Shown here one piece after another: positions 1 through 48,212 of a stretch of DNA of 49,940 nucleotides. The position numbers were made by a program, and so were the translations under genes. Origin of the DNA: a bacterium (GTDB taxonomy: Bacteria > Patescibacteriota > Minisyncoccia > Phycocordibacterales > SBAW01); contig SBAW01000036.1 in assembly GCA_005239955.1 (NCBI GenBank), forward strand, positions 1 to 49,940, written 5' to 3'. A model generated the notes under the pieces. It worked only from the letters and a program-made list of their open reading frames with translations. It did no database searches and was not told the DNA's origin. The stretch's first letter is position 1. Every line of letters begins with the position of its first letter.

Positions 1-595
1 CAAAATAGTCAGCGCCAAACCGATCAATGACACCGAGCCTCTCGACGTGTCGATCCGCAACATTCGTGGGGAGGACGCGAAGGAAACCGAGAAGCCAAAA
101 GAGCATACGAAGAAGGAAGAAGTAGGCTTCGCGCAAGGTGCCGCGGAGTATTCCTCCGTGTCTCGCGCGCAGCTGTCGTATTCGATTACGAAACGATAGA
201 CGGATATGTTTGTAGGCACTGCTTTGCTGGCACCATTGGAGGGCTTTTATTGTTGCCCCTTCCCTCTTCGCAATGGCAAAAACGGCCCGCATAGGCTCTG
301 AAATAGTAGTTTCCGTGAGGATGATCGAGGGGTGAGTTTTCCGAAAGAGCCGCCGTGCATTTTTGAGAAGCTTCGCATAAGCCAGGATATGTGAGACGAA
401 AGGAATGAGTGCCCTCTTTCGAGGCAAAAGATCTTCGACGAAGGGAAGATTTTTGCTGCGAAGGTAGGTGCACATGCCGTTATCCTCAAGAAGGAGAAAC
501 GAGACGTCGAAGCGCTGCGTGAGGTCAGGCAATAATTTTTCAAAATATTTAAGCGGCGCGATATAACGCGGCGTAATGTAGAGAATCGGTTTCAT
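1..595 (-). CDS. Partial GT-B-like glycosyltransferase/polysaccharide transferase, runs off window edge
   Basis: An open frame on the minus strand starts with ATG at 595 and stays open for 198 codons to the window edge, so the C-terminus is missing. It begins MKPILYITPRYIAPLKYFEK and continues with alternating hydrophobic strands and a basic, Leu/Phe-rich stretch around residues 150-185. The N-terminal strand pattern and the conserved-looking TETTISEPMR suggest the first Rossmann half of a GT-B enzyme, loosely like capsule or CDP-glycerol-type transferases. No catalytic motif is inside the visible part. The start overlaps the stop of the cytidylyltransferase gene by 1 nt (TAATG), so it is the next gene of the nonulosonate operon and may transfer that sugar. 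This role is inferred from context only. Confidence 0.7.
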   Translation of the reverse strand, partial: MKPILYITPRYIAPLKYFEKLLPDLTQRFDVSFLLLEDNGMCTYLRSKNLPFVEDLLPRKRALIPFVSHILAYAKLLKNARRLFRKTHPSIILTETTISEPMRAVFAIAKREGATIKALQWCQQSSAYKHIRLSFRNRIRQLRARHGGILRGTLREAYFFLLRMLFWLLGFLRVLPTNVADRHVERLGVIDRFGADYF

Positions 596-1308
596 TATCG
601 ATTCCGGATATTCCGGATGGCCAGAATCTCTTCAACGCGCTTCACGTCCTCGAGGGAGTCGATATCAACGCTCTCCTCTTTCGTCATAACGATTGACGTT
701 GTCTTCGGCGGGAAGAATGTGGGCTCCTGAAGGAATGTTTCCGATCGCACAATATACACCGCGCCGTTTGAAAGATACACATCCGGAAGCGCTTGGCGGT
801 TCATGAAGGGAAAATCATTGCCTGCCGCCCCGCGCAATAACCCATTCTCGTCGCGGAAGAAAGTTTTTAGCGCTCGTTTGTCATAAGGAACGAGCGAAAT
901 AAGTCCATCGGCCCCACTTTGAAGCAACTCTTCGAAAGCCAGGGTGAGGTGCGCGCTCGTTCGAAGTGGCGAGGTTGGCTGAAGATAGACCATAAACGTC
1001 GGAGGTGCCCCCTCTTCCCGCAGATGCAGGAGTGCGTGGGTAACGACCGGCTCCGATCGCGCCGTATCATCAGAGAGTTCTGCGGGACGTTTGTGCGCTT
1101 CGGCCCCATACTGTTTCGCGACACTGAGAATTTCATCGTCATCTGACGATACGATAATGCGGGAGATAAACGGGCACCCCTTTGCCGCTTCAATACTCCA
1201 CACCAAGAGTGGTTTGCCGCCGACCGGCATAATATTTTTTCGCGGAATGCTCTTGGAACCTCCGCGAGCAGGAATAAGGGCGACCGCGGTAAATGCAGGA
1301 TTATTCAT
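595..1308 (-). CDS. neuA: Acylneuraminate (nonulosonate) cytidylyltransferase, copy 1
   Basis: This 237-residue protein activates a nine-carbon acidic sugar with CTP to give the CMP-sugar. The family signature ARGGSK is at residues 14-19, followed by IPRKN. SSDDDEI at 54-60 and LQPTSPLRT at 109-117 match the nucleotide-binding and sugar-binding loops of the NeuA/LegF/PseF family. The length is usual for single-domain members. The start ATG at 1308 lies 8 nt inside the preceding epimerase gene, and no Shine-Dalgarno site precedes it. It closes an A-C-B trio (595-3636) that would convert UDP-HexNAc to CMP-nonulosonate. Whether the sugar is neuraminic, legionaminic or another nonulosonic acid cannot be read from the sequence. 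Confidence 0.93.
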   Translation of the reverse strand: MNNPAFTAVALIPARGGSKSIPRKNIMPVGGKPLLVWSIEAAKGCPFISRIIVSSDDDEILSVAKQYGAEAHKRPAELSDDTARSEPVVTHALLHLREEGAPPTFMVYLQPTSPLRTSAHLTLAFEELLQSGADGLISLVPYDKRALKTFFRDENGLLRGAAGNDFPFMNRQALPDVYLSNGAVYIVRSETFLQEPTFFPPKTTSIVMTKEESVDIDSLEDVKRVEEILAIRNIRNR

Positions 1309-2578
1309 GGAATTTTTTTTGAAGCGACATGCTTTTCACATCGAGCGACGCAAGGATCTCGGCGATCCGTGGCCCTGACGTACCATCACCAAAGCGAAAA
1401 TCAGGCGGGCACACACCGCGCTTGGACTGCGAAACAATTGCGTCTTTGATCTTTGCTCGATCATGAGGAACCTCAATAACATTATCTCCCCGCTCGCGCC
1501 CCGCCTGGCGGTCGCCAACAAGAACAACCGGAATACCAAGGTATGCTGCTTCTCGCAAAAAGCTTGAAGAATTACCGACGGCAACCGCCGCATTCTTCAT
1601 CAGACGGTAGAACGTAAAGAGAGGCACACTCTTATAAAAACGAGTACGATGCGCCCCTTCAAGGGCAAACTGCCAAATGCGATCGGAAATAAAGGACGCG
1701 CCGGCATCAACGTTCGAACCTACGATGACCTTCTGGAGGGGGTGTTCTTGGAGTGCCCCGAGGAGTTCCTCAACATCGGTTTTGTTATGCTCGCCGCGGG
1801 TTGTGACGGGGTGGTAGATCACCAAGACATAGGGCTCCGAAAAATCGAGCACACTTCCCTGACCGTTATCTTGTGTATCCGGATTCTGAGGCTCGTTCGC
1901 GGTAAGCTCTCGAAGCATGTCGATGACTGGCATGCCAACGGTAAAGACACGGTCAGGATGCTCGCCCATGCGAAGCAGGCGCTCATGGCTCTTTTTTGTA
2001 AGTGGAAAATGGATATGGGCAAGTTTTGAGAGCGCGTGGCGCACACTTTCATCAATCGTACCCGACACATCACCTCCTTCGATATGCGCGAGCGGAATAT
2101 TCTTGAGGGCAGTCGCCATCGCTATGGGAAGAAGTTCAAAGCGATCGCCATAGATAAGAACGACGTCCGGAGAAAGTTGATCGAGTATGTTCCCAATCTT
2201 CCCGAGTGTCGCGGATGCCCCCATTAGCATAGCGCTCGTGTCGCCACCTTTGCGAAGGACGGGGATTCGGGCATCAATCGCGAAGCCGTCTTTGGCAAAA
2301 AGCCGTGCGACATAGGAGGGGTCGGTAACCTCCTCCCCCTTCCCAAGGAGTCGCGCGAAGAGAAGCTCAAGGCGCCAAAAGAGAAACTGGAGTGCGCGCA
2401 TAATATCGCCATGGCGGAGCGACCACCACAGTGAATTAACAAACGAGTTGGTACCGACGATAGTGAGAAGACGAAGATCCACTCGTTCCCGAATCGCGCG
2501 CATGACCGGAAAGAGCCGTCCGTAATCGGCCCGGCTTGTGGCAACAACCGCGATGGTTTTTACGTGAGAGGTCTCCAT
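1301..2578 (-). CDS. neuC: Hydrolysing UDP-HexNAc 2-epimerase (NeuC/LegG type), copy 1, with insertion
   Basis: This 425-residue protein has the hydrolysing 2-epimerase motifs: an N-terminal TSRADYGR loop (14-21), GDRFE (144-148), HIEGGD (165-170), YHPVTT, and a C-terminal VGNSSS followed by GDRQAGRERG. The family converts a UDP-N-acetylhexosamine to the free 2-epimer plus UDP, the first step of the nonulosonate route. Between the first strand and GDGFA-type region (about residues 45-90) it carries a Trp/Leu/Arg-rich insertion that includes WWSLRHGD, where relatives normally have a short loop. That makes it longer than the usual roughly 380 residues. It overlaps the cytidylyltransferase gene by 8 nt and follows the synthase gene by 5 nt. 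Confidence 0.9.
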   Translation of the reverse strand: METSHVKTIAVVATSRADYGRLFPVMRAIRERVDLRLLTIVGTNSFVNSLWWSLRHGDIMRALQFLFWRLELLFARLLGKGEEVTDPSYVARLFAKDGFAIDARIPVLRKGGDTSAMLMGASATLGKIGNILDQLSPDVVLIYGDRFELLPIAMATALKNIPLAHIEGGDVSGTIDESVRHALSKLAHIHFPLTKKSHERLLRMGEHPDRVFTVGMPVIDMLRELTANEPQNPDTQDNGQGSVLDFSEPYVLVIYHPVTTRGEHNKTDVEELLGALQEHPLQKVIVGSNVDAGASFISDRIWQFALEGAHRTRFYKSVPLFTFYRLMKNAAVAVGNSSSFLREAAYLGIPVVLVGDRQAGRERGDNVIEVPHDRAKIKDAIVSQSKRGVCPPDFRFGDGTSGPRIAEILASLDVKSMSLQKKFHE

Positions 2579-2583
2579 TCTTG

Positions 2584-3636
2584 TTATGCAAGGTCCTTCC
2601 GCCGAAGCTGGACATCCGCCGGAATATTTCGAGTTGCTCGTCTCTTTAGTACGCGCGGAAAATCAATTGCTTTGATTTCACCGGTGCCCGGACGCTTGAC
2701 CCACACATTCTTCTTACTGAAGCGCTCTCCTTTCTTGATGGGAGCGATGGAAACAACACAGGCATAGGCAAAATCAATCGTCACCTGCTCCTCGGGAAGA
2801 ATAGTTTTTTTGCCTCCAAGCGCACGATGGATAGCCTGCGAACCGAGAACCAATTCATGAAGCTCTTTGGGATCAATCGAGATCGGTACATCGGGTCCTT
2901 TCCAGTGCTTGTTGGAAGTGAAGTGTTTTTCAAGAATCGATGCGCCGAGTGCGACGGCAGCGAAACAAGTGTATAGCCCAAGTGAATGATCACTTTGCCC
3001 AAGCACTGCATCTGGAAACGCCTTCCGAAGATCGGCGATACCGCCAAGGCGGACTTTTTCATATGGTGTCGGGTACATTGACGTGCAGTTGAGAAGCGCA
3101 AATGGCGTCTTGTGTTTGCGAAAGATAGCAACCGCTTTACGCACAGACCTTATGTCGTTCATACCAGTTGAAAGAATGACTGGTTTTCCAAAGCGCGCGA
3201 TATGTTCAATGAGGGGATAGTTATTACATTCTCCCGAGCCAATTTTGTACGCTTTTACCTTGAGGCGCTCGAGTCGATCCGCGGCGGCGCGCGAAAATGG
3301 TGTCGAGAGATAGATAAGTCCAAGGCGCTCCGTGTACGTTTTCAGTTCCCGCTCTTCCCGCTCTGAAAAGGCACAACGCGCCATAATTTCCCAAATAGAA
3401 ACGCGCGCATTCCCCGGAATGACTTTCTTTGCCGCAGGAATCATCTCGTCCTCAATGACATGGCTTTGGAATTTCACGCACTCGGCTCCGGCCGCTTTTG
3501 CGTCCCGGACCATGCGCTTGGCTTTCGCCATGCTGCCTTCGTGGTTAATTCCGATTTCCGCAATAACGAAGGGTGCTCGGGTTTTACCAATGGCTCGCCG
3601 CCCAATCGATAGTGTTGGTGTCGTAGGTGATCGCAT
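2584..3636 (-). CDS. neuB: Nonulosonate synthase (NeuB family) with SAF domain, copy 1
   Basis: The protein is 350 residues with the start at ATG 3636, just after the upstream CBS gene stops at 3644. A longer in-frame extension would overlap that gene and adds a low-complexity, unrelated N-terminus. It condenses phosphoenolpyruvate with a 2-acetamido-hexose. AEIGINHEG at residues 26-34 is the NeuB signature at the first TIM-barrel strand. KFQ, STPFS, STGMND, NCTSMYPTP, GQSDHS and EKHFT follow in the family order. The last 60 residues form an antifreeze-like SAF domain, the usual NeuB C-terminal cap. It sits between the CBS protein and the NeuC copy in one transcription unit. Confidence 0.93.
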   Translation of the reverse strand: MRSPTTPTLSIGRRAIGKTRAPFVIAEIGINHEGSMAKAKRMVRDAKAAGAECVKFQSHVIEDEMIPAAKKVIPGNARVSIWEIMARCAFSEREERELKTYTERLGLIYLSTPFSRAAADRLERLKVKAYKIGSGECNNYPLIEHIARFGKPVILSTGMNDIRSVRKAVAIFRKHKTPFALLNCTSMYPTPYEKVRLGGIADLRKAFPDAVLGQSDHSLGLYTCFAAVALGASILEKHFTSNKHWKGPDVPISIDPKELHELVLGSQAIHRALGGKKTILPEEQVTIDFAYACVVSIAPIKKGERFSKKNVWVKRPGTGEIKAIDFPRVLKRRATRNIPADVQLRRKDLA

Positions 3637-3643
3637 AGGTCTA

Positions 3644-3988
3644 TTACGCGCGGACCGCGACGTTTGTGACGACGTTCTCTGTATCGATGATCGGAAGGAG
3701 GTTGATGCCGGGATGTTCCGCAAAGAGTTTTTTGCTTTCTTTTTCGGCACCCTTCCCCTCCGCTATGGTGAGCACGTTCATATTGAGTACTTTTTCAATC
3801 GGAGCAAGGGTGGTGGCACCTTTAACAAGCGCGCGTCGTATATCGCCATCAGCGACCACGCCACGAAGTCGGTTGTTGTCCCCCGTCACAATGACCGCAC
3901 CACGTTTATTCTCCGTAATAACGCGGAGCGCATCAGCAATCGTACTTTTCTCCGAAATGATGAAGAGAGCGCGGTCGAGTGGTTTCAT
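3644..3988 (-). CDS. Stand-alone CBS-domain pair protein
   Basis: The protein is 114 residues and consists only of a tandem CBS (Bateman) module. The first repeat runs from about residue 10 to 55, with GVVADGDIRRAL typical of the end of a CBS repeat. The second runs from about 65 to the C-terminus. CBS pairs bind adenosyl nucleotides or similar ligands and act as regulatory modules. In the GDP-sugar legionaminic pathway described for Campylobacter, the nucleotidyltransferase PtmE carries a CBS pair. Here the CBS part stands alone between a NeuC and a NeuB gene with no attached nucleotidyltransferase. It could be a separated regulatory subunit or a remnant. The start ATG at 3988 lies 9 nt after the preceding gene. 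Confidence 0.88.
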   Translation of the reverse strand: MKPLDRALFIISEKSTIADALRVITENKRGAVIVTGDNNRLRGVVADGDIRRALVKGATTLAPIEKVLNMNVLTIAEGKGAEKESKKLFAEHPGINLLPIIDTENVVTNVAVRA

Positions 3989-3997
3989 GAGATTTGC

Positions 3998-5242
3998 TTA
4001 ATAGGTAATCTTTTTAACAAGGAGTTTTTCATCCGGTGGTGTATTCACAATTATATCAACGACACGTCTGGCGGAGCGGCCATCGCCGTACGGATTCACG
4101 CAATTCTTCAGAGATTTCTTGAATGCTGGAGAAAGTGCTTTCTGTATGGCCTTTGCAATCGCACGACGCTCATGAGGCGCATTAATGACGTTTTTCCCCT
4201 GAAGTCGTCCCGCTTCACGGCGTCCAATATTGACTGCGGCGAGCTTAAATGAGGGTGCTTCGAGGATTCCTGAAGAGGAATTGCCGATCATAACATCAGC
4301 GGCGGCCATAAGACCCGCATAATCTTGTCGCGGAAGACTGGGGAAGATTTTCATCGCCGCGGTTCGCTCTTCGTTGATCGCTTCCGCGACAAGGCTCGCA
4401 CCCGCATCAGAATTGTTGAGAATAACTACAATCTGCGCATCGAACTGCTTCACTGCTTCAAGCGTCTCGACCATCTGCGTCTTTGCCTTTTCAAACTCTT
4501 CGGTTACTGGGTGCTGCAGAACGAAGATAAGCGGTTTCCCGTTCTCCAGAAGGCCGAGTTTTTTAAATAGCTCCTTACGTGGAGTAACTTTCCCATTAAT
4601 GAGATCGTCGAGCTGGGGAGCTCCGACGGTGTGGATGCGAAATGATTCTTCCCCCATTTTGCGCACGCGGTCCGCGGCATCCTTATTCGCGGCAAAATGG
4701 AGATGGGCAAACTTCGTGATGGCATGGCGAGAGACGCCGTCGATATTGCCAGAGACTTCGCCCGACTGGATATGACCGACTGGAAGATAGAGGTGGGCGC
4801 CGACAATCGCTGCCATGAGCTGCTCGCCGCGGTCGCCACCGACAAGAAGAAAATCTGCGCCCATCTGATGAAGCATCTCCGGAAGCTGAAGCATAAAGAT
4901 GGAGAGCGACTTCGCCATCGTGAGGCGGTTGTAGCCATCGAGCGTGTTGTGAAGGACCGCCTCGATCTTGAATCCCTCGCGTTTGATCTCTTCCATCGTC
5001 GAACCAAACCGGTCGAGAACATGCATGTTGCTGACAATGATGCCGTAATCAATGTCCTTGCGTCGGCTAATCTCCTGAATTACCGGACGGTAATAGCCCC
5101 ACTCCCCGCGGGAGCCGGCAATAATCGCGACCTTCTTTTTCTTTTTATGGTTGCTGGCTTTTGGCACGGATGTGGAATGTGGAAAAACAATACAATAAAA
5201 AATCAATAATGGCAAATCCCCGTCAGTATATTTATGGAACAA
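3998..5242 (-). CDS. Hydrolysing UDP-HexNAc 2-epimerase (NeuC/LegG type), copy 2
   Basis: The open frame is 414 codons. The family core begins at about residue 36 with VAIIAGSRGEWGYYRP, and the N-terminal 35 residues are hydrophobic and unlike relatives. A GTG at 5167 would give a more normal N-terminus, so the start is uncertain. Motifs are GGDRGEQL, HIQSGEVSGNIDG, LQHPVTE, and GNSSSGILEAPSF with the late GRREAGRLQG. This is the classical NeuC/LegG pattern and is closer to it than copy 1. It would release a 2-epimerised HexNAc for the second synthase (6279-7382). It is separated from the upstream methyltransferase gene by 26 nt or about 100 nt, depending on the start. Confidence 0.88.
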   Translation of the reverse strand: MFHKYTDGDLPLLIFYCIVFPHSTSVPKASNHKKKKKVAIIAGSRGEWGYYRPVIQEISRRKDIDYGIIVSNMHVLDRFGSTMEEIKREGFKIEAVLHNTLDGYNRLTMAKSLSIFMLQLPEMLHQMGADFLLVGGDRGEQLMAAIVGAHLYLPVGHIQSGEVSGNIDGVSRHAITKFAHLHFAANKDAADRVRKMGEESFRIHTVGAPQLDDLINGKVTPRKELFKKLGLLENGKPLIFVLQHPVTEEFEKAKTQMVETLEAVKQFDAQIVVILNNSDAGASLVAEAINEERTAAMKIFPSLPRQDYAGLMAAADVMIGNSSSGILEAPSFKLAAVNIGRREAGRLQGKNVINAPHERRAIAKAIQKALSPAFKKSLKNCVNPYGDGRSARRVVDIIVNTPPDEKLLVKKITY

Positions 5243-5268
5243 AGAACTGGTGAGAAAAGTTCCTTTTG

Positions 5269-6273
5269 TTAGCGCTTTTTGGCGGCGAAGATAAGCGTAT
5301 CGGCGATGCCGAGCTTTTTGAGAAGCGCTTTATAGCTTTGATCAACTCCGGCAATCCATTGATCAAGTGCCTGTTTATTTTTTCGATAAGACGGGAGCGT
5401 GGCAACACCAATGCCGCCTTTCTGATGCTTGTGAAGCGGATGATAGCGGAGCGAAGAAGGCGACCAGCAATCAGCGACCGAAGGGGCAAGCTTCCCGGCA
5501 AACATGGTTGTCAGGTGGGTGGTTGGATTCACAAACTGATGAAAATAGGTCTTCCCCGTGAGTCCCGCCCTCTTCCCCACCGCCTTAATAGTTTTTGGCG
5601 AGAAGTAGTAAATATGCGGTTCGCGATAATAGAAGTCATTAAATTCCGTGAGGTTATACATCGAGACTTCGACATCATCGATATTCGGTACCTCAACAAC
5701 GATATGGCCTCCTGGCTTCAGCGCTCGTACGGCGTGTTTTAGAAATGATACTGGGTCCGGAATATGCTCAAGGGTCTCGAGGATGAAGATGGTGTCGAAA
5801 TAGTTCTCTGGCAACGTGTCTTCCTCAAGCGGGTCGGTATACACCTTGATCTTGAGCTTCCGGCGCATAAAGGCCGCATTTTCGATATTAAGCTCAAGTC
5901 CTTGCGCCTCTCTCACCAACGGCTTCACCGCACCCAGAAATTGACCCGCCGATGCGCCGATCTCGAGGATACGGAAGTGTTTTTTGATGTACGGCGCAAA
6001 GGCTTTGAGACGTTCCCCTTGATACGGCGTATAGAGATCAAAAAGTTCTTGGGATGGTGAACGCTTCCCTAAGATGGGAGTAAACTTCTTCCGGTAATCG
6101 CCCCGGTAATATTCGTTCAGGTTCTCCTTTTTTGGCGCAAGCTGTACCAAACTACAACGCTGGCATTGATAGACTGCGCGCTTGATGCCATGGCGCACTT
6201 CCCCGCGCACGCGCGAAAGTTTTTTATTGCCGCACAGATAACAAGTAATGGACTTAAGTGCTAGGGATGCCAT
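5269..6273 (-). CDS. Zinc-ribbon class I SAM-dependent methyltransferase
   Basis: The protein is 334 residues. Four cysteines (C11, C14, C37, C40) form a CxxC...CxxC zinc ribbon, with the HGIKRAVYQCQRC context seen in bacterial sugar methyltransferases. A Rossmann methyltransferase domain follows, with the SAM-binding strand LEIGASAGQFLG, the acidic loop GLELN, and LETLEHIPDP (motif III-like). The C-terminal third is shorter on recognisable motifs. It lies between the NeuB copy 2 gene (5 nt away) and NeuC copy 2, so it may methylate the nonulosonate or a partner sugar, but the substrate is unknown. The start ATG at 6273 has no Shine-Dalgarno site. Confidence 0.85.
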   Translation of the reverse strand: MASLALKSITCYLCGNKKLSRVRGEVRHGIKRAVYQCQRCSLVQLAPKKENLNEYYRGDYRKKFTPILGKRSPSQELFDLYTPYQGERLKAFAPYIKKHFRILEIGASAGQFLGAVKPLVREAQGLELNIENAAFMRRKLKIKVYTDPLEEDTLPENYFDTIFILETLEHIPDPVSFLKHAVRALKPGGHIVVEVPNIDDVEVSMYNLTEFNDFYYREPHIYYFSPKTIKAVGKRAGLTGKTYFHQFVNPTTHLTTMFAGKLAPSVADCWSPSSLRYHPLHKHQKGGIGVATLPSYRKNKQALDQWIAGVDQSYKALLKKLGIADTLIFAAKKR

Positions 6274-6278
6274 AGAAG

Positions 6279-7382
6279 TTAGGCGACGTCTTCCCAGGTA
6301 AGCATGGTGTCCTTCGGCATGTCGCGAGCTGCCTTTTTTCCGATAAGTTTTTTTTCGTACATCGGGTCAAGATATTTCGAGGGGATACCCTCAACTTTTT
6401 TGCCGTCTATCTCCATCGTACGTGGCCGACGCTCGATAAGGTTCGCGGTAGTAAACGCTTCTCCTTTCTTTACATCACGAAACGTGGTTGCGGTATGAAA
6501 TGCCCAATCGCGGACAACTTGTTCCTCTTTCGTAATAATTTTTTCACTCCCGAGCGCCACTTCGATTTTTCGGATGCCATCGACAAGGTCGCGAAGCATA
6601 TGCGGTTCAAGCGCAATAAAATGATCCGGGCCTTTTTGTTTTCTCGAGAGGGTGAAGTGCTTCTCAATCACTTTGGCACCAAGTGTTACGGCCGCATAGG
6701 CGGTGTAATTGTCCATCGTATGGTCAGACTGGCCAACGATCACACCAAAATCCTTTTGAAGTCGCGGAATAAGTCCGAGGTTCGCATGGGAATAGTCGTT
6801 TGGCGGATACTCCGACGTGCAGTTGGTGAGGATAAGATTCTCCTTTGCGCCCTCCTCTTCGTAGACTTTCACGGTGTCCGCAATCTCCTCCCACGTGCAC
6901 ATACCCGTTGAAACGATAACCGGCTTCCCGGTCTTCTTTGACACTTGCGCAAGTCGACGATGCTGCGGAAGGTTGTCGAGTTCCCCCGAACCAGTCTTAA
7001 AGGCTTTCACGCCGATATCATTTAAAACATCAACCGCCGCGGTACAAAAAGGCGTACAAAGATATTCGATCCCCACCTTCTCACAGTACTCCATGATCTC
7101 TTTGTGCATCGGAAATGTAAAGAGATTACGCTGCAAAATATCATAGAGCGGCCCGTCCCACATTTGAATGGACCCGGGAATCATCTCATTTTTTCCATCA
7201 ACCTCATTCTTTCCGACAAGGTGAAGTTGGAACTTCGCGACGTCCGCTCCCGCTTCTTTGGCAGCGTCAACGAGTTTCTTCGCCGTCTCCATGCTCCCGT
7301 TGTGGGAATCGGCGATTTCAGCAATAACAACGACGCGCTGTCCGCCGATTTTCAATTTTCCAAACGTCAGTTCCTTTACCAT
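6279..7382 (-). CDS. Nonulosonate synthase (NeuB family) with SAF domain, copy 2
   Basis: The protein is 367 residues and a divergent NeuB paralogue. AEIADSHNG at residues 21-29 replaces the usual AEIGxNHNG. CTPFCTAA, KTGSGE, STGMCTWEE, NCTSEYPPN, GQSDHTMDN and EKHFTLSRKQKGPDH follow the barrel order. The C-terminal 70 residues form a SAF domain. It would condense PEP with an amino sugar, but the altered signature loop suggests a different acceptor from copy 1. The ATG at 7382 is only 9 nt below a TACAAT -10 box, so the mRNA is probably leaderless. A foreign-looking transporter gene now separates it from its likely partner cytidylyltransferase at 8510-9235. Confidence 0.92.
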   Translation of the reverse strand: MVKELTFGKLKIGGQRVVVIAEIADSHNGSMETAKKLVDAAKEAGADVAKFQLHLVGKNEVDGKNEMIPGSIQMWDGPLYDILQRNLFTFPMHKEIMEYCEKVGIEYLCTPFCTAAVDVLNDIGVKAFKTGSGELDNLPQHRRLAQVSKKTGKPVIVSTGMCTWEEIADTVKVYEEEGAKENLILTNCTSEYPPNDYSHANLGLIPRLQKDFGVIVGQSDHTMDNYTAYAAVTLGAKVIEKHFTLSRKQKGPDHFIALEPHMLRDLVDGIRKIEVALGSEKIITKEEQVVRDWAFHTATTFRDVKKGEAFTTANLIERRPRTMEIDGKKVEGIPSKYLDPMYEKKLIGKKAARDMPKDTMLTWEDVA

Positions 7383-7420: not shown

Positions 7421-7443
7421 GGGCGCGCCAGAGAGGCGCGCCC
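7421..7443 (-). terminator. Intrinsic terminator of the transporter cassette
   Basis: A perfect 9-bp GC hairpin (GGGCGCGCC / GGCGCGCCC, 5-nt loop) is followed on the minus strand by TTTGCTTTTC. It lies 24 nt after the stop of the transporter gene and closes that gene as its own transcription unit. Confidence 0.75.
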
Positions 7444-7467
7444 GAGTTTGGGATGCGAATTATTTTT

Positions 7468-8397
7468 TCAGCCTGTCACCACCAGCATGAGGCCGGCGGC
7501 GATGAGGCCGAGGGCTGGAATCCGGGTCACGAGACTCTTCTTCTCCTCCGTCCCGTAGTGACTCTTGAGCCCGAGCCATCCCAAGACGATGGCGCTCGTG
7601 CCGCCGATGACGGCAGTGAGACTCTCCTTGATCCCGATGACGTAGGACACCGTCGGAATCCAACTGAACGCGGCGATGTGCGCGATCACTGACACCGCAA
7701 AGAGGGTGCCGAAGATCGCGCAGAAGCCGAAATTCCGCCAGGAGACGACGCCTTTGTACTGCGCGGGACGCCAGAGCCAGTCGAGAGCGGCCAAGATGAG
7801 ACAGCCGATACCGACGAAACTGTGGCACACCACGAGGTAGAAGGGGCCACTCGCTGCTTTTGCCGCAATGTAATCGAGGTTCGACGTGACCATGAAGATC
7901 ATGACGACGCCGAGCTGCATAAGCGCCCCACGTGAATGAGCAATCGCCCGAAAAGGCCCCCAGACATCCATTCCCTTCTCGAGGTTGAGGAGGTACACGG
8001 CGCCGACCATCATGGCGATGCCGATCGTACCTCCTTTCCCCGGCAGGTCCCCCACCCCCATGGCGATGCTGAGGATCAGCACCGCAACAGGGGTGAGTGC
8101 GCCGATCGGTCGCGTGAGGATGAGCGGCGCGCATTTCGGTATCGCCGCGAGCATAACGAACGCGACCACGAGAAGTGCAGCGTTAATGATGGTCACGCTC
8201 CAGAACTCCGGTTTGACCGTCTCCGGCATCCCTGCGGAGAAAAGCCACACCGCCTCAAAAGGAACGGCGATCAAGAATCCGGCCCCAATGAAGGCGAGCG
8301 ATGGAATACGCGTGAAGGCGGGAACCGCCCACGCGAACCCGTTGAGCACGCCGGCGATAACCGGCAGTGCCCAGATGATCCAATGGGTGTCCGCCAT
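7468..8397 (-). CDS. EamA/DMT-type ten-helix membrane transporter, foreign-looking cassette gene
   Basis: The protein is 309 residues and almost entirely hydrophobic, with about ten predicted transmembrane helices in the two five-helix halves typical of drug/metabolite (EamA-like) permeases. The first helix includes ALPVIAGVLNGFAWAVPAF and the last LGLIAAGLMLVVTG. The substrate is unknown. The gene differs from its neighbours in several ways. It is clearly more GC-rich. It has a perfect GGAGG site 6 nt before the ATG at 8397, which no native gene here has. It has its own TTGACT/TAAATA promoter, a structured leader and its own terminator. It sits between the cytidylyltransferase and synthase genes of nonulosonate set 2, in the same orientation, and looks like a later insertion. 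Confidence 0.85.
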   Translation of the reverse strand: MADTHWIIWALPVIAGVLNGFAWAVPAFTRIPSLAFIGAGFLIAVPFEAVWLFSAGMPETVKPEFWSVTIINAALLVVAFVMLAAIPKCAPLILTRPIGALTPVAVLILSIAMGVGDLPGKGGTIGIAMMVGAVYLLNLEKGMDVWGPFRAIAHSRGALMQLGVVMIFMVTSNLDYIAAKAASGPFYLVVCHSFVGIGCLILAALDWLWRPAQYKGVVSWRNFGFCAIFGTLFAVSVIAHIAAFSWIPTVSYVIGIKESLTAVIGGTSAIVLGWLGLKSHYGTEEKKSLVTRIPALGLIAAGLMLVVTG

Positions 8398-8473
8398 GGC
8401 GGCCCTCCCTCACTTGGTTACCAGGATTGAGCCTGGCACTCATAAGCCCCGGGCTACCGGGGCATCCAGAGCT
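8398..8473 (-). promoter_or_regulatory. Structured 5' leader of the transporter gene with two hairpins and a Shine-Dalgarno site
   Basis: Two hairpins lie between the promoter and the ATG. The first is 8446-8463 (GCCCCGG / CCGGGGC, 4-nt loop), the second 8419-8438 (TGCCAGG / CCTGGTA in sense, one wobble pair). GGAGG follows at 8404-8408, 6 nt from the start codon. The layout could be a cis-regulatory RNA, but I cannot match it to a named riboswitch class. Confidence 0.5.
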
Positions 8474-8502
8474 TATTTAAGCACAAAAAAATAAAAAGTC
8501 AA
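8474..8502 (-). promoter_or_regulatory. Sigma-70-type promoter of the transporter cassette
   Basis: The -35 TTGACT (8497-8502) and -10 TAAATA (8474-8479) have the ideal 17-nt spacing. The -35 begins 8 nt after the stop codon of the upstream cytidylyltransferase gene. The leader from the expected start point is about 70 nt, in contrast to the leaderless native genes. Confidence 0.7.
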
Positions 8503-8509
8503 TCGCTCG

Positions 8510-9235
8510 CTAACTGATCCCCCACTTTCGGCGCATTTTAAATTCAGCGAGATCCCATTCTTCCTGCGTATCGATATCAGCGATGCCGCTCCCGTCCATC
8601 ACGTAGCCGTAGGTACTGTCTCCCCAGAGCTTGCGATCCCCTTCAAACAGATTTTTTGTGCGGAAGGCATAGATCGCAGAATTGCCCACGTACGATTTGG
8701 CAACATCTTGATTGCGGTGTGTGATCGCCTTTAGCGGCGCTCCATCCCCGACGCGGCCAAGGAGTCCCCCTTCTCCAATATGATACTGCTTGAGGTAGCT
8801 GTAGTGTCCGGGTGTCTCGGAAATACCGAGGAGTGAGTCAAAATCTTTTCTGGTGGCCATAATCTCCGCGACTTCGCGAATATGCTTCGCTTCCCTGCCA
8901 ACCGACGAAGGTTCAAGAAGCACAAAATGTTCCGGAGCGTAACCACCCTTTTTTAACTCTTCAAGGGCAAAACGAAGCGCGTCAGCCACATACGCCGTAT
9001 CGCCAGCAAGTTCTTTGGGTTCCATAAATGGCACCTCGGCGCCGTATCTTTTAGCGATAGCGGCAATTTCCTCATCGTCAGTCACCACAACAACGTGATC
9101 AAACGCGCCGGATTCTTTCGCCACTTCAATCGTCCACGCGATAAGTGGCTTGCCGAGAAAATCTTTAACATTTTTGCGTGGTAGTCGCTTTGAACCGCCG
9201 CGCGCCGGAATGAGAGCGAGAGTTTTTGACGTCAT
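8510..9235 (-). CDS. Acylneuraminate (nonulosonate) cytidylyltransferase, copy 2
   Basis: The protein is 241 residues with the start at ATG 9235, 10 nt after the upstream gene's stop. A 100-residue upstream extension exists but overlaps that gene and is not conserved-looking. LALIPARGGSKRLPRKN at the N-terminus, VVVTDDEEI, LLEPSS and HRNQDVAKSYVGNSAIYAF fit the NeuA family. Copy 1 has LQPTSPLRT where this one has LLEPSSVGR, so the sugar-binding loops differ and the two probably use different nonulosonates. DIDTQEEWDLA near the C-terminus is the usual family ending. With the NeuB and NeuC copies at 6279-7382 and 3998-5242 it completes a second pathway set, now split by the transporter cassette. 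Confidence 0.92.
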   Translation of the reverse strand: MTSKTLALIPARGGSKRLPRKNVKDFLGKPLIAWTIEVAKESGAFDHVVVVTDDEEIAAIAKRYGAEVPFMEPKELAGDTAYVADALRFALEELKKGGYAPEHFVLLEPSSVGREAKHIREVAEIMATRKDFDSLLGISETPGHYSYLKQYHIGEGGLLGRVGDGAPLKAITHRNQDVAKSYVGNSAIYAFRTKNLFEGDRKLWGDSTYGYVMDGSGIADIDTQEEWDLAEFKMRRKWGIS

Positions 9236-27191: not shown

Positions 27192-27719
27192 TCACCTCCT
27201 TCGCCATGCCCCTACCGCAGCGGGTATGAGCGTATCGCGGTGGTGCTCTACCATGCGGCGCGGAAGAGCCAGTGGATGAAAGAACCTCGCCTTCCGACCT
27301 GACAGCTTAGCCAGCTCCTCCGGCACTTGTGCAACGTGGAGGAGAGCGATATAGCGTCCGCGTCTCACGCGCAAATCGAACCATTGCGTGAAGCGTGGCG
27401 TGACACGAATGTCAGCGAGCTCGTCATACCACAAGCGCTCGAGTGCAGTGGTCGGCGACTCGCTTGGCCCATGCGTCACACCGGGCATATTCCATTCATT
27501 CGGCCACGGTTCGGCCGGATTCTCCCGGCGGGTTGGGCGTTTGACGAGCCAGATTTCTCCGGCCCCATTGAAGAGCGCCAACTCTGTTGACACACCCCTC
27601 GTGGAAAGCTGCAGGGCTTCGTAGACGGCAGACGGCAACTGCCGACGCTTCACGTCACGAGCGATGACGCGAAGCAACTGAACGGCCGTTTTGATGCGGT
27701 CGTCGGTCCAGAATGACAT
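27192..27719 (-). CDS. Degenerate Nudix-like protein, foreign-looking cassette gene
   Basis: The protein is 175 residues. From about residue 45 a Nudix-like fold appears: ELALFNGAGEIWLVKRPTR, then WPNEWNMPGV and a weak Nudix box where GPSE, ER and DE stand for the canonical Gx5Ex7REUxEExGU. The missing glutamates make hydrolase activity uncertain. The N-terminal 40 residues are helical and basic. The gene is GC-rich, has a perfect GGAGG site 5 nt before its ATG, and has its own promoter and terminator, like the transporter gene at 7468. It interrupts the gap between a glycosyltransferase and the PLP-dehydratase genes in the same orientation. Function unknown. Confidence 0.75.
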   Translation of the reverse strand: MSFWTDDRIKTAVQLLRVIARDVKRRQLPSAVYEALQLSTRGVSTELALFNGAGEIWLVKRPTRRENPAEPWPNEWNMPGVTHGPSESPTTALERLWYDELADIRVTPRFTQWFDLRVRRGRYIALLHVAQVPEELAKLSGRKARFFHPLALPRRMVEHHRDTLIPAAVGAWRRR

Positions 27720-46664: not shown

Positions 46665-46746
46665 TGGGCGCGAGAGGACTTGAACCTCCATGCCTTGCGG
46701 CATACGCTCCTGAAGCGTACGTGTCTACCAATTCCACCACGCGCCC
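46665..46746 (-). tRNA. tRNA-Leu (anticodon CAG)
   Basis: An 82-nt cloverleaf with 7-bp acceptor GGGCGCG/CGCGCCC, discriminator A, the long variable arm of a leucine tRNA (TGCCGCAAGGCA), T-loop GTTCAAGTC, and anticodon loop TTCAGGA. CCA is not encoded. It reads CUG codons. Confidence 0.93.
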
Positions 46747-46752
46747 GTTGCA

Positions 46753-46781
46753 TGGGATCGAACTTTTGTCTTTCCCTTATC
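46753..46781 (-). pseudogene. 3'-half fragment resembling tRNA-Ile
   Basis: About 24 of 29 positions match the anticodon-to-T-arm part of the intact tRNA-Ile at 46833-46862 (shared: GATAAGGGAAAG and GTTCGATCCC). The acceptor strand does not pair with anything nearby, so it is a remnant. Confidence 0.65.
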
Positions 46782-46822
46782 GGCGGCAGCGAGCGAGGGC
46801 TGAAAACAGATAACTCGCTGTG

Positions 46823-47106: not shown

Positions 47107-47362
47107 ACCAGTGTCGGTATGTCTGGCGAACCGAGCGCATTTTAAAGATATCGCGCCACTATCTCTCTCGATTGCTCGAGCGATCGACTGTCAGTCATCC
47201 TGATGCCTTGCGGCAGAAGGACAACGTTTTCACCTTGAATGAATCCACGAACAGCTTCCGCTACCCGTGCCTTGTTACGACTTACTCCCTGTCACTGAGC
47301 TTACCGTGGGCCTGCGCGAGGCAGGACTTCGGGCACTCCCAGCTCCCTTGAGTTGACGGGCG

Positions 47363-48212
47363 AGTATCTTCGCAAATCTACGAATTAATGTTCCCACCGT
47401 ACGTGCGGCTTTCCCGCATACGGCGAGTTCAGTGCATCCGCTGCTTCAACAAAAGCAGCCGCTGAACGCCGGCATCCGTCCGATGAATTTCTTTATTCAG
47501 AAGTTTCATCATCGTGCAAAATACCGTAAAGTCATGTCGCTTCGATGCAAATCGAAGCGTATGCTTCGTGAAAAACGGAATAATAATATCCGTTAAATCA
47601 CTCCACCGATATACCTCGAACCGGTAGCAATTTTGGTGATTGGGCCGTGTGTCTTTCTGAAAATACACACTGCCACAGCCAAAATAATCTCGGAGTTTAA
47701 AGAGAATCTTTTTGTCTCGCTCGATGAGTTTGATGTAGAACTTTGGTTCTACAACTACTCGTCGAGCTGCCGTTTTTACGTTCGAGGGATCTCGAACATA
47801 TACGGTAAAGCTCCCTTCTCCGTCTACTAGTCCGACAATATAGTCGGGCGTTAGCGATTCACTGAATGAGCCCTTCATTGCATTCCTGCAGTTACTATGA
47901 CTCAGCTGACTTCTGACGCTGCGTCAGATTTATTCTACCGTGCATTGGCACGATAACAGCGTCAGATCTCCACAGGTTACGCATTGCTCCTTTCCAAACA
48001 TCCATACCAGATTTGATTCTCGATCTTCCCTACCCTCACCGCCCATCTGGCAGGTCGATCAATCTGTTGCTTTGTATGGCTATTTTTTGCATCCGGACCC
48101 TCCGCCACCATCCTCACGGAATAGTGACTGTCCTTCTGCTACGCTCCCAGAGACGATCCGGGAGGCGCGGATTTTAACCGCGTGGCGCAATGCGCTGCTG
48201 TGCGCGTTTATT
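47363..48212 (-). other. Intron in 16S rRNA near position 1399/1400 (E. coli numbering)
   Basis: The 16S reads TTGTACTCAC at 48213 and resumes with CGCCCGTCA at 47362, so about 850 nt interrupt the decoding region between C1399 and C1400. The intron carries a LAGLIDADG gene. Close to its 3' end is a hairpin CCGTATGCGG-GAAAG-CCGCACGTACGG with a 2-nt bulge, like the structured 3' parts of self-splicing introns. A homing intron of group I type is most likely, but I could not identify the P7 core. Splice points may shift by a few bases. Confidence 0.85.
47429..47878 (-). CDS. Intron-encoded LAGLIDADG homing endonuclease
   Basis: The protein is 149 residues. YIVGLVDGEGSF at 13-24 is the single LAGLIDADG helix with its acidic catalytic residue; KFYIKLIERDKKILFKLRDYFG and SVYFQKD are typical of the saddle-shaped DNA-binding fold. 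With one motif it should work as a homodimer. It would cut intron-less 16S genes at the insertion site and spread the intron by homing. The basic C-terminus (KEIHRTDAGVQRLLLLKQR) fits this family. Confidence 0.92.
   Translation of the reverse strand: MKGSFSESLTPDYIVGLVDGEGSFTVYVRDPSNVKTAARRVVVEPKFYIKLIERDKKILFKLRDYFGCGSVYFQKDTRPNHQNCYRFEVYRWSDLTDIIIPFFTKHTLRFASKRHDFTVFCTMMKLLNKEIHRTDAGVQRLLLLKQRMH

Follow-up and report, generated by a model that had tools for sequence, protein, structure and literature searches.

A Shine-Dalgarno-bearing transporter gene, probably imported, in a Patescibacteria genome whose 16S rRNA lacks the anti-Shine-Dalgarno

The window analysed here (the whole stretch of 49,940 nt) belongs to a tiny symbiont-like bacterium and includes a transporter gene preceded by a Shine-Dalgarno sequence (SD) that the 16S rRNA of the same genome is not equipped to read.

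Loss of the anti-SD has been published for some CPR lineages (class iv, including Ca. Campbellbacteria, Wolfebacteria and Absconditabacteria; PMC10783764), and according to an earlier survey (PMC6107228) absence of the anti-SD generally goes together with absence of SDs. The host resembles these SD-scarce organisms in that its 16S rRNA has no CCUCC and its native genes are SD-free; however, the studies concerned catalogue species and conclude that SDs, too, are few or missing in them, whereas the host keeps a minority class of apparently foreign genes with strong SDs. Most genes of the Bacteroidetes are likewise SD-free, but there the anti-SD is conserved (PMC6847099), whereas it is absent from the host 16S rRNA. 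A partial literature search found no report of a foreign SD-bearing gene class in Patescibacteria or Parcubacteria.

Anatomy, surroundings and product of the transporter unit

The transporter gene (7468–8397, minus strand, as are all features of the unit) encodes 309 amino acids between an ATG start and a TGA stop codon. As a first-pass annotation of this DNA had stated, GGAGG (8408–8404) lies 6 nt (GCCGCC) upstream of the ATG at 8397, and the gene is followed by its own GC-hairpin terminator (7443–7421), which consists of a perfect 9-bp stem with a 5-nt loop (GGGCGCGCC-TCTCT-GGCGCGCCC) and a T tract (TTTGCTTTT). The higher GC content reported there is also confirmed by comparison with the window (GC 0.613 vs. 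0.522; GC3 0.79 vs. 0.55, z 5.2). The promoter and the structured leader described in the same annotation stand in part. The hexamers TTGACT (8502–8497) and TAAATA (8479–8474) are present with a 17-nt spacer, the first beginning 7 nt past the stop codon TAG (8512–8510) of the upstream gene, but they agree with the consensus at only 5/6 and 4/6 positions, the -10 hexamer lacks the final T and a consensus scan misses the element, which was read directly and is best regarded as a weak, putative sigma-70-like promoter (8474–8502). The predicted 5' leader of about 70 nt (8398–8467, counted from a presumed transcription start) contains one perfect 7-bp GC hairpin (GCCCCGG-UAGC-CCGGGGC), but as a whole it folds no better than shuffled sequences (z -1.44) and it matched no Rfam family up to E 1; a riboswitch or another known structured leader was rejected on these grounds. 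The hairpin was also rejected as a trait of the gene class described below, being equally common upstream of native genes. When the fold is extended into the first part of the ORF, the AUG comes out as open (predicted 0.92–1.0 unpaired) and GGAGG as partly open (0.06 to 0.96 across its bases).

The unit interrupts a set of nonulosonate genes, and the clean split that had been claimed holds: the upstream neighbour, an acylneuraminate/pseudaminate-type cytidylyltransferase gene (8510–9235), and the downstream neighbour, encoding a NeuB-type nonulosonate synthase (6279–7382), have the same orientation, are intact and match the corresponding domains. No homologue of the transporter occurs in any of 59 relatives from the family and order, and orthologues at the same locus, which the annotation had named as counter-evidence to its reading, were looked for and not found among them. 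In one relative (G023, locus L054) the cytidylyltransferase and NeuB homologues are directly adjacent, without the transporter; this is evidence of gene order only, because the nonulosonate genes of the relatives are only about 35–40% identical. Neither direct repeats flanking the unit nor an integrase inside it were found, and a mobile genetic element was rejected for want of terminal repeats, target duplication and integrase.

Two divergent nonulosonate sets lie side by side in this region (595–7382 and 8510–9235, minus strand), comprising two NeuB proteins, two NeuC-type epimerases and two cytidylyltransferases, which suggests the synthesis of two different sialic-acid-like sugars.

The transporter protein matched no relevant Pfam or NCBIfam family (a Pfam search up to E 10 gave one irrelevant weak match) and does not reach the cut-off of EamA (PF00892), so it is filed as a DMT-fold protein rather than as a member of that Pfam family. 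Its homologues are at most about 30–32% identical over long stretches; distant ones (20–30% identity, e.g., those from L002, L003, and L005) do score as EamA, and the protein departs from several of their nearly invariant positions. An AlphaFold2 model based on an alignment of 31 homologues (from Cyanobacteria, archaea, Parcubacteria, Omnitrophota and others) shows a confident DMT fold, i.e., an inverted-repeat helical bundle (pLDDT 86.6), and structure comparison ranks LicB first (Z 27.2, rmsd 2.6, 266 aligned residues), followed by YddG (5i20, Z 23.6). The likeness to EamA-like DMT transporters thus extends, as a predicted fold, throughout the protein, whereas the family match of its own is missing and near-invariant positions deviate; the product is predicted to be a divergent EamA/DMT-fold membrane protein of the drug/metabolite-transporter type. 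Its position beside nonulosonate genes makes a CMP-sialic-acid transporter a tempting identity, and the fold resembles that of such transporters, but the structural ranking favours LicB; a shared fold does not settle the substrate. As a protein the transporter is nothing out of the ordinary; the informative point is the systematic mismatch between gene and ribosome.

A 16S tail without anti-SD and SD-free native genes

The 3' end of the 16S rRNA gene (47230–47300, minus strand) has helix 45 followed by GGATTCATTCAAGG (vs. GGATCACCTCCTT), without a CCTCC anti-SD. The host tail, GGAUUCAUUCAAGG, is thus devoid of CCUCC; it reads GTGGATTCATTCAAGG where the canonical sequence is GGATCACCTCC, and the non-canonical tail is also given as AUUCAUUCAA. 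CCUCC is missing from all 29 tails recovered from relatives across the order (loci L018–L046). In these relatives helix 45 is kept and an ATTCAA-type tail replaces the anti-SD, TTCAA itself appearing conserved. The canonical tail pattern was found in 157/379 genomes sampled from the phylum vs. 1/17 of the host order (the host genome included), figures in which a missing match may also mean an unassembled 16S gene or a diverged pattern. The SD of the transporter would form a duplex of -11.9 kcal/mol with a canonical tail and of -4.5 kcal/mol with the tail of its own 16S rRNA, in agreement with the first-pass claim that this 16S rRNA cannot pair with GGAGG.

The genome had further been called SD-free, and for native genes this is correct: 13 SDs were observed vs. 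11.4 expected among 558 genes. The same pipeline can detect SDs, since the sister lineage Doudnabacteria (G387) shows a normal excess (16/107 vs. 0–3 in controls). Isolated native genes carry instead a TANNNT box whose end lies precisely 6 nt upstream of the start codon (29/220 vs. about 2–3 per position), and the same box is found in 22/110 isolated native genes of G003, a genome of another genus in the same family. This is the signature expected of leaderless mRNAs and points to native genes being often leaderless; the box is absent from the high-GC3 genes described in the next section.

Two further features of the rRNA region were observed. An intron of about 0.9 kb (47310–48205, minus strand) interrupts the 16S gene close to its 3' end; in it a group-II-D1D4-type RNA match (47870–47940), barely above threshold, is combined with an ORF for a LAGLIDADG homing endonuclease (47432–47878), types of RNA and endonuclease that do not usually go together. 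Between the genes for tRNA-Ile and tRNA-Leu (46740–46820, minus strand) lies what looks like a disrupted copy of the 3' half of a tRNA (gataagggaaagacaaaagttcgatccc).

A class of high-GC3 genes with SDs

The transporter had been described as a singular cassette that differs from every native gene. This is wrong, as it is one of a class: a NUDIX gene in the window (27192–27719, minus strand; TAGGAGG as SD in TAGGAGGGACAG-ATG, GC3 0.67, GC-hairpin terminator) and tens of genes elsewhere share its design. The class was surveyed in 665 of the 716 kb of the genome, in which 695 genes were called with a simple home-made script; a threshold of GC3 of at least 0.66 (genome average about 0.56) yielded 63 genes. 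Properly placed SDs (GGAGG/AGGAG) precede 25/63 of these vs. 22/632 others (odds ratio 18, p 2e-16), and 4.8 would be expected among the 63 from shuffles of the same 16 nt. High-GC3 genes are small, are solitary (gap of at least 50 nt) in 73–87% of cases, vs. 47–49% of genes below GC3 0.6, and are followed by a terminator in 57–58% vs. 15–19%. SD, solitary position and terminator occur together in 22 genes, about 1.6 being expected under independence. The encoded proteins are functionally diverse (NUDIX, PIG-L, cation efflux, trypsin-like, GNAT), many of them belonging to no family. The flanks of class members share no 10-mer common to at least four of them, and shared 9-mers are confined to SD and terminator strings.

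High GC3 could in principle arise from codon selection in native, highly expressed genes. The codon choice of the transporter does fit the preferences of the genome (codon z +1.3), and a gene that two genera share with 84% identity (apparently ribonucleotide-reductase-like) is GC3-high in both (0.74 and 0.73). However, ribosomal-protein genes have GC3 values mostly of 0.48–0.61 and no SD, so that high GC3 is not an effect of expression, and the transporter is absent from the 59 relatives, no family orthologues with the same GC3 having been found; a native origin is therefore very improbable.

An error of assembly or binning that joined donor DNA to this metagenome-assembled genome (MAG) would account for the alien composition and is favoured by the number of contigs (56) and by one contig dense in such genes. 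Against it, high-GC3 genes are present on 28 of the stretches surveyed, among them long contigs where native genes flank them on either side, the SD enrichment persists when only stretches of 15 kb or more are counted (p 2e-10) and in the seven-contig genome G003, and the transporter unit is inserted cleanly between intact genes. A chimera can scarcely be the explanation. The dense contig itself (C11, 7.2 kb; L115) carries six GC3-high genes (0.72–0.93) at a GC content of 0.58 and is possibly a contaminant or a mobile-element contig in the MAG.

G003 has its own set of genes of the same design (SD in 9/49 vs. 8/344, p 4e-5), and a few such genes occur in the smaller samples of G024, G002, and G042; G037 (GC 39%) shows SD depletion and no such class. 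In the sampled part of G003 homologues were found for 3/63 high-GC3 genes vs. about a third of native genes.

Origin of the units and status of their SDs

The unit is missing from relatives, has an alien composition and brings along everything needed for its expression, which together argue for import from SD-using bacteria. The transporter gene is most likely a complete unit acquired from a GC-richer bacterium of this kind, one of roughly 40–60 such imports, and its SD a relic that does not pair and is left as a mark of foreign origin. The transfer, its direction and its recency are inferred, the transfer itself from composition and phyletic absence; a very recent acquisition is plausible. 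Under this proposal an autonomous unit (promoter, leader, SD, ORF, and terminator) would have been inserted between two co-directional nonulosonate genes of a recipient belonging to an order of Patescibacteria whose 16S tail lacks the anti-SD and whose native genes are SD-free and often, it appears, leaderless. GGAGG would be unreadable there by normal pairing, and translation of the transporter, if any, would depend on the open AUG and on initiation that needs no SD. Survivorship may explain why the imports are solitary, as only self-contained units would be expressible after insertion.

No close donor sequence was found in any of the searches, only distant homologues, which occur in a minority of 378 other genomes of the phylum (identity up to 30% over long stretches) and are similarly distant outside it. 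Canonical CCTCC tails are present in several of the genomes with a homologue (G117, G159, G314, G106, G428, G373, and G329) and some of the homologues have SDs of their own (L003, L006, and L009). The transporter matched no phage, plasmid or viral source, three other class members matched no viral contigs, and PHROGs matches were few and weak.

That the SD is a leftover is argued by its pairing, which is strong with the canonical tail and no better than that of shuffled sequence with its own. SD frequency moreover falls with GC3 toward native values (0.39–0.40 above 0.66, 0.12 at 0.60–0.66, and 0.02 at 0.5–0.6), as expected if imported SDs decay. The main observation that the relic model leaves unexplained is a group of nine genes of lower GC3 that also have the full design of SD, solitary position and terminator; their SDs could be kept for a reason, or some donors could have had a similar GC content.

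These nine genes favour the alternative that the SD is functional. The solitary GC-rich genes would then be a maintained class of expression units, and some other element (a second rRNA, a variant or a protein-mediated contact) would recognise their GGAGG, while native genes use leaderless or SD-free initiation. The sharp placement of the class SDs (GGAGG/AGGAG from -10/-11, with a modal spacing of 5–6 nt between GGAGG and ATG), the recurrence of the class in G003 and the presence of S1-domain proteins point the same way. However, a single 16S 3' end was found in the host genome (a MAG 92% complete), and a search of it for a second 16S with CCTCC gave a single exact match to GGATCACCTCC, which lies in an apparently coding region and not in rRNA. 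The poor pairing with the host tail, the drop of SD frequency with amelioration and the small number of class members common to both genera also speak against a maintained function, which is unlikely. A further reading, in which imported SD-bearing units are continually renewed and are translated by an SD-recognising route that bypasses the 16S 3' end, so that two initiation modes would be split by gene origin, is distinctly unlikely.

If the SDs are relics, as we consider probable, they escape the usual selection in a host without anti-SD and would therefore serve as a composition-independent marker of imported genes. The system makes it testable how ribosomes adapted to leaderless, SD-free mRNAs express foreign mRNAs with leader and SD, and whether the mismatch between SD and ribosome limits gene transfer into bacteria with tiny genomes.

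Two clusters of such units were seen besides. On contig C6 of the host (L170, G000:C6:20001–40000) four solitary genes with SD and terminator, at 2078, 6309, 12058, and 14125, lie within 12 kb and have GC3 values of 0.53–0.61; they either have ameliorated since their import without losing the SD or came from a donor whose GC content was similar. In G003 (L206, G003:C1:240001–260000) genes that look like members of the purine pathway, with N-termini resembling those of PurB and PurK, form solitary units of high GC3, which suggests that purine synthesis was imported there gene by gene.
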